Shown here piece after piece: positions 43,334-49,909 of a stretch of 64,000 nt of DNA. A program made the translations under genes and the position numbers. Source of the stretch: an uncultured Prevotellaceae bacterium (GTDB lineage: Bacteria; Bacteroidota; Bacteroidia; Bacteroidales; Bacteroidaceae); assembly GCA_947176895.1 (NCBI GenBank), contig CAMWSK010000003.1, positions 84,827-148,826 of the forward strand. Direction: 5' to 3'. The notes beneath the pieces are model-generated. The model had not been told where the DNA came from, did not search any database, and saw only the letters and a list, made by a program, of their open reading frames with translations. Position 1 is the stretch's first letter; the number at the start of each line of letters is the position of its first letter.

Positions 43334-44644
43334 ATGAGAAAGGATAAGATAGACGTGATAACGCTGGGCTGTAGCAAGAACTTGGTGGACAGCGAGAGAT
43401 TGATTGCCCAGTTGGAAATGTCAGGCTATAAGGTGGAACACGATGCGGAGAAACCGGATGGTGAGATCGCAGTGGTAAACACCTGCGGTTTCATTGCCGA
43501 CGCCCAGGAGGAGAGTATCAACATGATTCTTGAATTGGGCGAGCGCAAGCGTCGGGGCGAGTTGAAGCGTCTGTATGTGATGGGATGTCTCAGCCAGCGT
43601 TTTCTGAGTGAGTTGGAAAAGGAAATCCCGGAGGTGGACAAGTTCTATGGGAAGTTCAATTGGGACGAGTTGCTTTCCGATTTAGGACAGACTTATAACC
43701 ATGAGGCTCAGAACAAACGGCACCTCACCACTCCCGGCCATTATGCTTATGTGAAAATCAGCGAAGGTTGCGACCGCCGATGCAGCTATTGCGCGATTCC
43801 CATCATAACGGGCAGGCATAAGAGCCGTCCCGAGGAGGATATTCTGGACGAAGTGCGCTATCTCGTAGGGCAGGGCGTGAAGGAGTTTCAGATTATTGCT
43901 CAGGAATTGACTTACTATGGATTGGATCTTTACAAAGAGCGTCGCATCGCTCAACTTATAGAGCATATAAGTGATATTCCCGGAGTGGAGTGGATTCGCC
44001 TGCATTATGCTTATCCCACCGATTTTCCCAAAGAACTTTATCGTGTGATGCGTGAACGGAAAAACGTGTGCAAGTATCTTGACATCGCTCTGCAGCATGT
44101 TTCCGACCCTGTGCTTGACGCTATGCACCGTCATATCTCGAAGCAGGAGACCTATGATTTCGTGGAGGAAATCAGGCGTGAAGTGCCCGGTATCCATTTG
44201 CGCACCACGCTGATGGTGGGGCATCCCGGAGAAACGGAAGAGGGTTTTACCGAGTTGATGGCGTTTGTGCGTTGGGCTCGTTTCGAGCGTATGGGTGCCT
44301 TTGCCTATAGCGAAGAGATGGGTACCTTCAGCGCGGAGCATTATGCCGATGACATCCCCGAAGAAACCAAGGAAGCCCGCCTGAGCAAACTGATGCGTTT
44401 GCAGCAACGCATTTCCGGTGAAGTGCAGGGCGAGAAAGTGGGGCAGACAATGAAGGTGATTATCGACCGTCAAGAGGGGGAATATTATGTCGGCAGAACA
44501 GAATTTGATTCGCCCGAGGTGGACCCCGAGACATTGATTGCCGTGAGTGAAGGCGAACTTAAGATAGGTGATTTTTATTTGTGTGATATCTACGAGGCCG
44601 ATGATTTTGACCTTTATGCCCACGTAATTCAGCATATATCATGA
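43334..44644 (+). CDS. rimO: Ribosomal protein S12 methylthiotransferase RimO
   Basis: 436 aa. N-terminal UPF0004 domain with the second cluster's cysteines (TLGCSKNLVDSE, VVNTCGF, VMGCLSQ), radical-SAM motif EGCDRRCSYCAIP, and a C-terminal TRAM domain. DGE-type EEGF...FAYSEEMGT is RimO rather than MiaB. It methylthiolates Asp of ribosomal protein S12. The end overlaps the HU gene by 4 nt (ATGA). Confidence 0.96.
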   Translation: MRKDKIDVITLGCSKNLVDSERLIAQLEMSGYKVEHDAEKPDGEIAVVNTCGFIADAQEESINMILELGERKRRGELKRLYVMGCLSQRFLSELEKEIPEVDKFYGKFNWDELLSDLGQTYNHEAQNKRHLTTPGHYAYVKISEGCDRRCSYCAIPIITGRHKSRPEEDILDEVRYLVGQGVKEFQIIAQELTYYGLDLYKERRIAQLIEHISDIPGVEWIRLHYAYPTDFPKELYRVMRERKNVCKYLDIALQHVSDPVLDAMHRHISKQETYDFVEEIRREVPGIHLRTTLMVGHPGETEEGFTELMAFVRWARFERMGAFAYSEEMGTFSAEHYADDIPEETKEARLSKLMRLQQRISGEVQGEKVGQTMKVIIDRQEGEYYVGRTEFDSPEVDPETLIAVSEGELKIGDFYLCDIYEADDFDLYAHVIQHIS

Positions 44645-44922
44645 ACAACAAGGAGTTTATAGCCGAAATGGCTCGGCGAATGGAGATGACCACAAAGGAA
44701 TCATCTGCTTTGGTTCAAGGTCTTTGTGCAGAGATCGAGACCTTTTTGGGGGATGAGGATTCCATTTCTTTACCTAATTTCGGAACGTTTGAGGTGAAGA
44801 AAAAGCTGGAACGAGTGGTTGTGTCTCCATCTACCAAACAAAGAATGCTGGTTCCGCCCAAAATGGTTATCGGGTTCAAGGCCAGTGCAAATGTGAAAGA
44901 ACTATTGAAGAAATTGAAGTAG
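44641..44922 (+). CDS. HU-family DNA-binding protein
   Basis: 93 aa. MNNKEFIAEMARRMEMTTKESSALVQGL is the HU dimer helix pair; SLPNFGTFEVKKKLERVVVSPSTKQRMLVPPKMVIGFKASANVKELLK is the beta-arm and C-terminal helix. The arm carries no RNP-type GRNP motif, so DNA contact may differ from canonical HU. Start overlaps rimO; the HU-LysM gene follows 6 nt later, suggesting the two products could heterodimerise. Confidence 0.9.
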   Translation: MNNKEFIAEMARRMEMTTKESSALVQGLCAEIETFLGDEDSISLPNFGTFEVKKKLERVVVSPSTKQRMLVPPKMVIGFKASANVKELLKKLK

Positions 44923-44928
44923 TGCCCT

Positions 44929-46074
44929 ATGAACAATAAGATTTCTCTACAAGATTTGGCGGCGTCCTTCGCTGTCCGTAAGGGGTTGCCTAAGAAGCAG
45001 GCCGAGTTGTTTGTGCGCACGATGTTCGAGATTGTACAGGAATATGTGCTCAAGGAGGGCCTGGTAAAGATTAAAGGGCTGGGGACTTTTAAGCTTATCA
45101 GTGTGGAGAGCCGTTCAAGCGTGGATGTAAGTACGGGAGAACGTATCCAGATTGAGAGCCACTCCAAGATTACCTTCACGCCGGACAAGGGATTGGCCGA
45201 CCAGGTGAACAAGCCTTTTGCCGGTTTCACCACCGTAATACTTAATCCGGATACGAAGTTAGAGGACATGGAGGCCATGGAGCTGAACGAGTCCTTGTTG
45301 CCGGAACTGAAACCGGAAGAACTCGTTGAGGATTCTGAAACAGAGGACCTGCCTGATGTGGAGATTGAAGAGGTGATGCCCGCTGATGGGGAAGAGGCAG
45401 GGAACGTTGCGGAATATGAGCCGGAAGCAGAGGATTCCGTAGTGACGCTTGGTGAACAAATAGAACAACCCGTAGCAGAACAGGAGGAGGAAAAGGACAT
45501 GAAAAACGAATCGAAGATGGTTGACACTGAGGTTATCCGGCAAATGGTGAAGAATGCCGTGAACAAGGAGATGAAGAAACAGCGCGGCGTGGTGCTGTCG
45601 TGGGGATGGGTGGCAATGTGCATGCTGCTGGTTGTGGCGCTGTTGATTGGCTCTTTCGTGTTGGGTTATTACATGGGTGGAGATGCTCATCGACCTTCTT
45701 CCACCCAAACGGTTGAGTCCAAAGTCACGGTGAAGAAAGCCAAAGAGGTCAAGCCCGTGAAGGCGGTCGTGGAAGACACCGCAAAGAGCCAGGTTGCTCC
45801 CATCACTTCGGCAGCTCCCACCGAGCTTCAGGTGAAGCCTGTTGAGGCAAAGCCCGTTGCAAAATACGAACAGATGCCCGGAGGAGCCTACGAGATTGTG
45901 GGCGTGAAGGGCGAGCATGTGATGAAGGCCGGCGACAACCTGCTGAGGATTGCCCGCAAAACCTACGGCGACCCCGCGTTGTCCAGCTACATCGTATTCT
46001 TCAACCACATCGAGAACCCCGACCTTGTGCCTCTGGGTGCAGTGCTTAAGCTGCCCGAATTGGTTAAGAAATAA
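44929..46074 (+). CDS. HU domain - transmembrane helix - LysM protein
   Basis: 381 aa with three parts. Residues 1-92 are an HU-type fold (AASFAVRKGLPKKQAELFVRTMFEIV, GLGTFKLISVESRSSVDVSTGERIQI, KITFTPDKGLADQVNKPF). Residues ~100-200 are acidic and likely disordered (EEVMPADGEEAGNVAEYEPEAED). One membrane helix follows at ~225-250 (WVAMCMLLVVALLIGSFVLGYYMGG). A periplasmic K/V/P/A-rich stalk leads to a C-terminal LysM (~325-378: EHVMKAGDNLLRIARKTYGD...LVPLGAVLKLPE). With no signal peptide, the N-terminus is cytoplasmic and the LysM is periplasmic, so the protein could link the nucleoid and peptidoglycan. A terminator follows. Confidence 0.92.
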   Translation: MNNKISLQDLAASFAVRKGLPKKQAELFVRTMFEIVQEYVLKEGLVKIKGLGTFKLISVESRSSVDVSTGERIQIESHSKITFTPDKGLADQVNKPFAGFTTVILNPDTKLEDMEAMELNESLLPELKPEELVEDSETEDLPDVEIEEVMPADGEEAGNVAEYEPEAEDSVVTLGEQIEQPVAEQEEEKDMKNESKMVDTEVIRQMVKNAVNKEMKKQRGVVLSWGWVAMCMLLVVALLIGSFVLGYYMGGDAHRPSSTQTVESKVTVKKAKEVKPVKAVVEDTAKSQVAPITSAAPTELQVKPVEAKPVAKYEQMPGGAYEIVGVKGEHVMKAGDNLLRIARKTYGDPALSSYIVFFNHIENPDLVPLGAVLKLPELVKK

Positions 46075-46140: not shown

Positions 46141-46236
46141 TTGTACTGAAACAGACTAAACAGACTAAACAGACTAAACTATAAGAATAATCTAATAAAG
46201 TTTATTCCTGTTCAGGCATAGCACACAAAAAATATC

Positions 46237-46509: not shown

Positions 46510-47430
46510 ATGCGAAAACTTAAAACCTTTCTTAATCCCGTCAATCTGTATTCAGATTCGTTTTGGGGTAAAGTTCCCGTTATCTTAACATCGTTATGTT
46601 CATTTGCCTTTCTGTGCTCATGTTCAGAAGGTAAAATGGTCATATCAAGTGTTGGTTATCAGTCCATCCGAACCTCATTCCTGCAACCAGATGCAAAGGA
46701 AAACAAAATCCCAGATGAGGCGGAAATCATTTTAGCATATACTGTCGGCATAAATGGTGAACTGGGGGTCGGAATCAGTAACAATACTGATGAAATTATG
46801 GTAATAGACCAAGCAATGTCTTTTTTTATCAACGATGGCCAATCCATTTCATATTACGATCCAACGATAAGAACACAAACAATAACGAACACATCGTCCA
46901 AAACGAAAGGTGGTTCTGTTAATCTCGGAGCCGTTAATGATGTCCTAAATATAGGGGGACGAATTGGAAGCGTACTCAACCGAATAAATGTGGGAGGTTC
47001 AAGAACAGTGGGAACTTCAATTGAAAACACAACCATCACTGCTGATGAACCTCGAATATCCATCGGTCCACGTGGAAGCGGCACCATGTCTAAAACCTTC
47101 ACAATAACGGGTGTCGGACAAGATTATTTAAGTGACAGAACTATTTCATCAACATATTCTTTTCAAACCAGTCCGTCTCGATTTAGTGTTTGCATATCTT
47201 ATTCCTTGGACGGTGGTCAAAACTTTAAAAAGATAGTAACGGATTTTTATGTAAACTCAAGTCATGTGTTTCCTGTCACACGTAAAGGAATGGTGAACGA
47301 ATCGCTGAGAAAGATTTACAAAGCTAAATCAGATGCACTGAATGAGAACCTTTGGATATTACATTTCAACAACAATGTTCCTGGTTCAAACAGCTCTATC
47401 GTAAATGGATACCTGTATGACTATCAATAA
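46510..47430 (+). CDS. Accessory lipoprotein, unknown
   Basis: 306 aa, AT-rich relative to its surroundings. N-terminal basic segment, then VPVILTSLCSFAFLCSCSE with a lipobox (FLCSC); ATG 46510 puts the signal unusually deep (~38 residues). The mature part is beta-rich with a Gly/Ser/Asn section (GSVNLGAVNDVLNIGGRIGSVLNRINVGGS) and no catalytic motif. Its pair partner follows 33 nt later. I recognise no family. Confidence 0.8.
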   Translation: MRKLKTFLNPVNLYSDSFWGKVPVILTSLCSFAFLCSCSEGKMVISSVGYQSIRTSFLQPDAKENKIPDEAEIILAYTVGINGELGVGISNNTDEIMVIDQAMSFFINDGQSISYYDPTIRTQTITNTSSKTKGGSVNLGAVNDVLNIGGRIGSVLNRINVGGSRTVGTSIENTTITADEPRISIGPRGSGTMSKTFTITGVGQDYLSDRTISSTYSFQTSPSRFSVCISYSLDGGQNFKKIVTDFYVNSSHVFPVTRKGMVNESLRKIYKAKSDALNENLWILHFNNNVPGSNSSIVNGYLYDYQ

Positions 47431-47463
47431 TAGAATAATTGTCAATCAAAAAACAAACTTAAA

Positions 47464-48429
47464 ATGAGAAACAGAACCACCTTTATTATATTGGCATTAA
47501 TTACAATTTTTGTAATGTCTTCATGCCACACGACAGAAAAATTCGTTGTATACGGTCAGCAGGGAACAGAAATATTTAGTCCACAAATGCAGCAAATTGG
47601 GGAAATCGGCTTTGACGGAAGTGCAAAAATAAAATTATCAAGCGATGATTGCGCTTCTTATTTATTGGCGAAAAATCCAGGATCAGACCTTTACATCCCT
47701 TTTGCACTGGATTACAAAAACAAATCGTATGGTAGTTCAAGATTTTTAAGCGGACTTGAATATGTTGTTGCGATAGGTAGCGTATCAGCAGGCTTAGGTT
47801 TCGGACTTGCTTCCGGTGGAGATGATGCACCGTTAGCCGCAGTTGCTCTAGCATCCATACCAACATCATTTGCAGGAATAGCCACAAGCAATAGGTTAAA
47901 TCAAACTACTCGTGAGTGGAAATTTACCTATCATAAACAACAACACACGAATAATGACTTGCTTTTTACAGAGCCACAGTTTAACGAACCTGTAAAACAG
48001 CGTGTTTTTCACACGGAACAATCAGAACAAGATGTTTCTGAAATTGCTGGATGGACGCAAGAGAAGAGTCAATCAATCAAATTACCATTTAAGAACAAAA
48101 CTTATAATGTGATCCAGGTGGTGACTCACTTTAATGGTAGAAGTTTAAAAATGGAACCAGAAGGGAATGTCGTGGTAAAAGGTAATACCATTACAATTAA
48201 AATAGAGGGCAACAGTTATTTAAATAACATGGTCATTGGTATAACTAAAGATCTGAATAAAACACTAAGATTTGGTGATCCCTTGCGCAATTATTGTTTG
48301 TATAGTAGTTCTGATGATGAAGAAGTCGGGTTGTTTTATGAAGAAATTGACAGGAGTCTCGGATTGATTGAGCAGAAAATACTGATTAAAAAAGATGATT
48401 CTATTTTGTTTGAAATAGTTTTTATGTAA
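47464..48429 (+). CDS. Accessory lipoprotein with glycine-zipper-like segment, unknown
   Basis: 321 aa. MRNRTTFIILALITIFVMSSCHT has a lipobox (MSSC). About residues 100-145 (LEYVVAIGSVSAGLGFGLASGG...AAVALASIPTSFAGIA) form a hydrophobic Gly/Ala-rich stretch able to insert into a membrane, flanked by soluble domains. AT-rich like its upstream partner, and followed by a terminator. The pair may act together at the outer membrane, but I find no recognised family. Confidence 0.8.
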   Translation: MRNRTTFIILALITIFVMSSCHTTEKFVVYGQQGTEIFSPQMQQIGEIGFDGSAKIKLSSDDCASYLLAKNPGSDLYIPFALDYKNKSYGSSRFLSGLEYVVAIGSVSAGLGFGLASGGDDAPLAAVALASIPTSFAGIATSNRLNQTTREWKFTYHKQQHTNNDLLFTEPQFNEPVKQRVFHTEQSEQDVSEIAGWTQEKSQSIKLPFKNKTYNVIQVVTHFNGRSLKMEPEGNVVVKGNTITIKIEGNSYLNNMVIGITKDLNKTLRFGDPLRNYCLYSSSDDEEVGLFYEEIDRSLGLIEQKILIKKDDSILFEIVFM

Positions 48430-48922: not shown

Positions 48923-49909
48923 ATGGTAGATATTCGTGAGTTGAACGAGCTGATTGAGCAGAAAAGCTCGTTCATCACAAACTTGCAGACCGGCATGTCA
49001 CAGGTGATTGTCGGTCAGAAACATTTGGTGGATTCGCTGCTTATCGGTCTGTTGAGCGATGGTCACGTGTTGCTGGAGGGCGTTCCCGGTCTGGCCAAAA
49101 CACAGGCCATCAAGACATTGGCATCTTTGGTTGATGCCAAGTTCAGCCGCATTCAGTTTACCCCCGACCTTTTGCCTGCCGATGTTATCGGTACGATGAT
49201 ATATAGTCAGAAGGAGGAGAAGTTTATGGTGGAGCAAGGTCCCGTGTTTGCCAACTTCGTCTTGGCTGATGAGATTAACCGTGCACCGGCCAAAGTGCAG
49301 AGTGCTTTGCTTGAGGCCATGCAGGAGCGTCAGGTGACCATCGGAAAGACGACCTATCCGTTGCCTGAGCCTTTCCTGGTGCTGGCCACCCAAAACCCCA
49401 TTGAACAGGAGGGAACCTATCCTTTGCCCGAGGCTCAGGTGGACCGCTTCATGCTGAAGGTGGTCATCGACTATCCCCAATTGGAAGAGGAAAAGAAGAT
49501 TATCCGCATGAACATCACGGGCGAGAAGCCCCAGGTGCGTGCCTTGCTTTCCACACGGGAGATTCAGGAGGCCCGCGAGATTGTCCGTCAGGTGTATATT
49601 GACGAGAAAATCGAGCAGTATATCGTGGACCTGGTGTTCGCTACCCGTTATCCCGAGAAGTATAACCTGAAGGATATGCGGGACTACATCGAGTTCGGCT
49701 GTTCTCCCCGTGCCAGCATCAACCTGGCTTTGGCGGCAAGGGCTTATGCCTTTATCAAGCATCGCGGCTATGTGATTCCCGAGGATGTGCGTGCCGTGGC
49801 TCATGATGTGCTTCGCCACCGCATAGGACTGACTTATGAGGCAGAGGCCAACAATGTTTCCGTAGAGGAAATCATCAGCAAGATTATCAACAACGTAGAA
49901 GTGCCCTAA
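48923..49909 (+). CDS. MoxR-family AAA+ ATPase (Bat operon)
   Basis: 328 aa. Walker A-like GVPGLAKTQ, Walker B VLADEINRAPAKVQSALLEAMQE, sensor 1 ATQNPIEQEGTYPLPEAQVDRFML. MoxR ATPases act as chaperones for VWA-domain proteins, which are encoded downstream in this operon (BatA, BatB). The stop overlaps the DUF58 start by one base (TAATGG). Confidence 0.95.
   Translation: MVDIRELNELIEQKSSFITNLQTGMSQVIVGQKHLVDSLLIGLLSDGHVLLEGVPGLAKTQAIKTLASLVDAKFSRIQFTPDLLPADVIGTMIYSQKEEKFMVEQGPVFANFVLADEINRAPAKVQSALLEAMQERQVTIGKTTYPLPEPFLVLATQNPIEQEGTYPLPEAQVDRFMLKVVIDYPQLEEEKKIIRMNITGEKPQVRALLSTREIQEAREIVRQVYIDEKIEQYIVDLVFATRYPEKYNLKDMRDYIEFGCSPRASINLALAARAYAFIKHRGYVIPEDVRAVAHDVLRHRIGLTYEAEANNVSVEEIISKIINNVEVP

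Follow-up and report, generated by a model that had tools for sequence, protein, structure and literature searches.

A membrane-anchored HU-LysM protein and its free HU partner: a candidate link between nucleoid and peptidoglycan in Bacteroidales

Introduction

Several described systems share parts of their make-up with the protein studied here. Proteins of the IHF/HU superfamily (PF00216) can have distinct subunits, as in IHF alpha and beta, and in the HU-HIG family (PF18291) an HU-superfamily domain is fused to other domains (Ig, wHTH or a glycine-rich part). In the HU-CCDC81_bac/SPOR proteins (PF18174/PF18175 with PF05036) a single chain holds two HU domains of the CCDC81 type, one hydrophobic helix and a SPOR domain, which binds peptidoglycan. 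The HU family of these proteins is common in the class, and Burroughs and colleagues are said to have predicted, in Cell Cycle in 2017, a chromosome-partitioning role for the SPOR-linked HU proteins. A fourth group comprises the polar landmark proteins HubP, FimV and TspA, which have a periplasmic LysM domain, a single helix, an acidic cytoplasmic part and TPR. HubP, with its periplasmic LysM and acidic cytosolic domain, positions and tethers a chromosome origin via ParA1 (PMC8789113).

Here we describe a two-gene system found in a window of 64,000 nucleotides from an uncultured Prevotellaceae bacterium (order Bacteroidales), in which one protein carries an HU domain, a transmembrane (TM) helix and a LysM domain, and the gene just upstream encodes a free HU. 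We found no publication on the family when searching the literature for an HU-LysM protein already described.

Results

The genes of the system, the domains of the membrane protein and the preceding context gene are located in the window as follows:

43334–44644, + strand: rimO, a context gene that is not part of the system; it overlaps the start of the free HU gene by 4 nt (ATGA)
44641–44922, + strand: free HU-family protein, 93 aa, with a full basic arm and proline P63 (PF00216, 1e-20); the proposed dimer partner and DNA grip
44929–46074, + strand: HU-TM-LysM protein, whole gene (ORF of 381 aa)
44929–45219, + strand: HU domain of the membrane protein (aa 1–97; PF00216, 3e-18; HU fold in AlphaFold2)
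45220–45600, + strand: cytoplasmic acidic disordered linker (aa 98–224; 34% D/E; pLDDT mostly <50)
45601–45684, + strand: single transmembrane helix (aa 225–252; hydropathy and AlphaFold2; N-in by the positive-inside rule)
45685–45888, + strand: low-confidence linker following the helix, probably periplasmic (aa 253–320; mostly low pLDDT)
45889–46068, + strand: LysM domain (aa 321–380; profile match to the Kbp and ECP6 LysM; AlphaFold2 fold)

A gap of 6 nt separates the stop codon of the free HU gene from the start codon (ATG) of the HU-TM-LysM gene. Both HU domains of the pair score well above the curated cut-off of PF00216 (66.2 and 73.9 bits against 22.4), and in the membrane protein the Pfam match covers residues 8–94 (E 3e-18). 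An AlphaFold2 model of this protein, built with 30 homologues, has a confident HU domain, one helix and a confident C-terminal domain, with disordered linkers between them. The HU domain of the model shows the HU fold (two helices, beta saddle and arm; TMt 0.84 to PDB 5lvt), and a Foldseek search with the N-terminal part retrieves HU and IHF structures. The single Kyte–Doolittle peak (residues 228–246) falls within the modelled helix (225–252), and the linker upstream of it, with 34% D/E and 6% K/R, ends in the basic flank KEMKKQR. No signal peptide is found in the HU-TM-LysM protein; its N-terminus is the HU domain itself.

Residues 321–380 form a beta-alpha-alpha-beta domain (pLDDT about 89–97). 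The Pfam LysM family (PF01476) has no match in the window protein up to E 1 and is seen in only some homologues, there below threshold (14.6–17.9 bits against a cut-off of 20.9); the family profile matches solved LysM structures, namely Kbp (2.5e-6), ECP6 (1.8e-6) and other LysM chains. A domain below the Pfam cut-off could bind something other than peptidoglycan. Taken together, Pfam, hydropathy, AlphaFold2 and the LysM profile confirm the order that an earlier note on this DNA had read from the sequence: HU, acidic linker, one TM helix and LysM, with no signal peptide.

The protein differs from each of the described systems. Like IHF alpha and beta, the two HUs are distinct subunits with matches to PF00216 and the HU fold, but one of them is anchored in the membrane and carries a LysM, and its arm is degraded in Bacteroidales. 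The HU-CCDC81_bac/SPOR proteins resemble the membrane protein in that a single chain has HU, one hydrophobic helix and a domain for binding peptidoglycan, but theirs are two HU domains of the CCDC81 type and a SPOR rather than a LysM; against the Pfam set of PF18174, PF18175 and SPOR, the window protein reaches only 12.5 bits for PF18175 (cut-off 35) and has no SPOR. The window proteins also score below the HU-HIG cut-off and have no Ig, wHTH or glycine-rich part. HubP, FimV and TspA have the opposite chain order (N-terminal LysM, helix, acidic repeats, TPR) and neither an HU domain nor a partner HU, whereas the window protein begins with HU, has its LysM at the C-terminus and gives no TPR match in Pfam; we regard the likeness as an analogy that may indicate a possible way of working, not as homology.

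A protein of the SPOR type is encoded in the same genome (L036; G000:C18, 1309–2397). This protein of 362 aa combines a pair of CCDC81-type HU domains with one hydrophobic segment and a SPOR domain; all three Pfam families score above cut-off, and the gene has a DEAD-box helicase-like gene on one side and an FHA-like gene on the other. With this second chain of HU, a TM segment and a wall-binding domain, envelope anchoring of HU looks like a design that recurs in the phylum.

Relatives of the HU-TM-LysM protein occur throughout the genus of the window and in Bacteroides, Phocaeicola, Paraprevotella and Alloprevotella. Within the order its distribution is patchy (39 out of 247 genomes), so that the idea of a protein present in every genome of the order was rejected, and any tether that it forms would not be a universal need. 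Full-length homologues outside the order were found only in one family of the same phylum but a different class (f48). Searches of the other orders of the class gave matches of free-HU length only, except for one short match to the C-terminal part. In f48 (loci L042–L066) about 50 extra residues follow the LysM; they are rich in Ala, Lys and Glu and probably helical. One homologue (L177) matches only from about residue 83, and its HU, which is not recognised, may be lost or strongly diverged.

The charges around the helix favour an N-in orientation in both groups: the flanking K/R counts are higher on the N-terminal side in 100 loci against 14 in Bacteroidales, and in 35 against 1 in f48. The HU domain is therefore very probably cytoplasmic and the LysM periplasmic, and the topology claimed in the earlier note is well supported. 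The opposite arrangement, with HU outside the cytoplasm (e.g. binding extracellular DNA), is very improbable, given these counts, the missing signal peptide and a partner HU that is soluble and without an export signal; we found nothing in its favour.

We examined 185 loci and recognised the membrane HU in 184 (the exception is L177); these include some near-duplicates, and at 92% identity, with gappy pairs left out, 151 pairs remain. In all 184 loci of Bacteroidales and f48 the membrane HU has a free HU beside it or joined to it by fusion. The free HU lies directly upstream on the same strand in 182 of them (within 60 nt in 179, with overlapping genes in 97); of the two exceptions, L090 is a start-codon artefact with the free HU present, and L178 is a natural fusion. 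The gene immediately upstream is rimO in 117 out of 144 loci of Bacteroidales. It is never rimO at the 38 loci of f48, where the pair is nevertheless kept, so the pairing does not depend on that operon. In effect, the pair is obligate. In the window the two genes share a reading frame, which raised the possibility of a read-through fusion; all three frames occur among the 182 loci (89, 68 and 25), however, and the shared frame is not a recoding signal.

When neighbouring genes fuse, their products are classically taken to be physical partners; between HU proteins the obvious partnership is a dimer. We found 20 loci in one genus of the same family as the window (the genus of L178), and four of them encode natural HU-HU-TM-LysM fusions (L207, which is the same gene as L178, L208, L210 and L219). 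Some of these genomes are drafts, and four separate assemblies agree on the fusion. The fusions do not form one clade: in a tree, L208 is closest to the unfused L218 (support 0.965). On the strength of these natural fusions, our comparison suggests that the two HUs form one heterodimer, and the partnership with the free HU proposed in the earlier note gains firm support from the fusions and from the adjacency at every locus.

Structure models and couplings bear on the same point. When the two HUs are modelled as one chain, using gene pairs that are naturally in frame and translating them past the stop codon, the model matches single-chain IHF over ~200 columns (TM 0.57, rmsd 5.8–6.6), a weak match that is consistent with a heterodimer; the likeness to IHF is moderate, and any HU pair would probably give the same. 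A coupling analysis with about 125 effective sequences gave inter-HU pairs (e.g. F47–F33 and L44–F33) that are plausible for the core of an HU dimer; its top score lies within the shuffled null, and the shuffles also disturb relatedness.

The arms of the two HUs are not alike. In Bacteroidales the intercalating proline (P63) is kept in 99% of the free HUs, whereas in 97% of the membrane HUs this position is V or I (V67 in the window protein, whose arm has no proline and a near-neutral charge), and the mean net charge of the arm is +5.5 for the free HU against +0.2 for the membrane HU. Four residues of the membrane HU (R62, G70, H78 and K80) are almost invariant in Bacteroidales. In f48, by contrast, the proline is present in 100% of both HUs, and the membrane HU has a canonical NPQTG arm; this may point to a DNA-binding ancestor, a suggestion drawn from comparing the arms.

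The length of the arm differs as well. In 12 out of 19 loci of the fusion-bearing genus the arm of the membrane HU is cut to 8–18 residues (against 28), and short arms are also found elsewhere in the order (L176 and L179), which makes at least 14 loci in total; the arm of the free HU has about 30 residues in every one measured. Loci in which the beta-arm of the membrane HU is mostly lost next to a full-length arm of the free HU are L176, L179, L212, L213, L217, L218, L220, L221, L223 and L224. In six out of the 14 short-arm pairs (L212, L213, L219, L221, L224 and L176) the first HU also has no intercalating proline, so sharp DNA bending is not universal.

Because the arm of the membrane HU in this clade is neutral on average, without the intercalating proline and sometimes short, the DNA grip is likely to be the free HU, and the membrane HU would serve mainly as anchor and dimer half. 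The earlier note had regarded a loss of DNA contacts from the HU fold as an argument against its reading. Such a loss is partly what we see, in the membrane HU of this clade. Alternatively, the HU domains could be a protein-interaction module only, as has been proposed for CCDC81-type HU, and the pair an envelope scaffold without DNA binding. The neutral or short arms of the membrane HU fit such a scaffold, as do the pairs with no proline in either HU and a further match of the two-HU model to HU-like microtubule inner proteins. We nevertheless think it unlikely, as the arm of the free HU is strongly basic with P63 in 99–100% of the loci, and as the membrane HU of f48 keeps its canonical arm.

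Discussion

The reading that we prefer, and to which we give somewhat better than even chances, is a membrane-anchored, IHF-like HU heterodimer that links nucleoid DNA to peptidoglycan via LysM. The free HU and the membrane HU would form one IHF-like dimer. Its intact basic arm would come from the free HU, which would grip DNA in vivo, while the membrane HU, as the other half of the dimer body, would dock the free HU. The long acidic linker would hold the membrane HU to the single TM helix, and the LysM may bind peptidoglycan in the periplasm, so that nucleoid DNA would be physically linked to the cell wall. Such a link might act in nucleoid positioning or segregation, or in excluding division over the nucleoid.

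This reading is supported by comparison of sequences (architecture, topology signal, obligate pairing, natural fusions and asymmetric arms), and its parts differ in strength. At this level the heterodimer is well supported, DNA binding via the free HU and wall binding via LysM are each plausible, and any part played in positioning or segregating the nucleoid is conjectural. For the tether between chromosome and wall claimed in the earlier note, pairing, fusions and topology add weight, whereas the uneven arms weaken the part in which the membrane HU itself holds DNA. A more specific version, in which the membrane HU gave up its DNA contacts to become the dock of a dedicated envelope-spanning chromosome anchor, and the nucleoid is coupled to peptidoglycan mechanically and reversibly as free HU is loaded, which would position or segregate the chromosome, is speculative and in our view rather doubtful.

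Chromosome placement and segregation in this large gut phylum have, to our knowledge, been little studied, and genetics is workable in Bacteroides. There the two-gene system, with its obligate partner, natural fusions and asymmetric arms, offers a clear candidate, open to testing, for a structure that links DNA directly to the wall.

There are two further explanations. The protein might be a landmark of the HubP/FimV kind, with LysM and helix providing localisation, the acidic linker recruiting clients and only indirect contact with the chromosome; HubP joins the same three elements and positions the origin via ParA1 (PMC8789113), and the linker of HU-TM-LysM is long and acidic. In the linker, however, conservation of both sequence and length is poor, unlike in the HU domain; HubP-type repeats and TPR are absent, and the obligate HU partner is left unexplained; we consider a landmark of this kind improbable. 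A membrane-tethered regulator, whose LysM senses the state of the wall and whose HU pair changes expression at particular sites, has a similarly small chance of being right: in its broad architecture the protein is similar to one-component membrane regulators, but HU-fold proteins usually have little sequence specificity and no conserved target operon was seen.

The surroundings of the two genes in the window include a short tandem repeat (aaacagact) just 3' of the HU-TM-LysM gene (46155–46180) and, further on, two probable lipoproteins (46510–48429), which lie between this gene and a MoxR-type ATPase at 48923. A MoxR gene is found downstream, on the same strand, in 99 out of 144 homologous loci.
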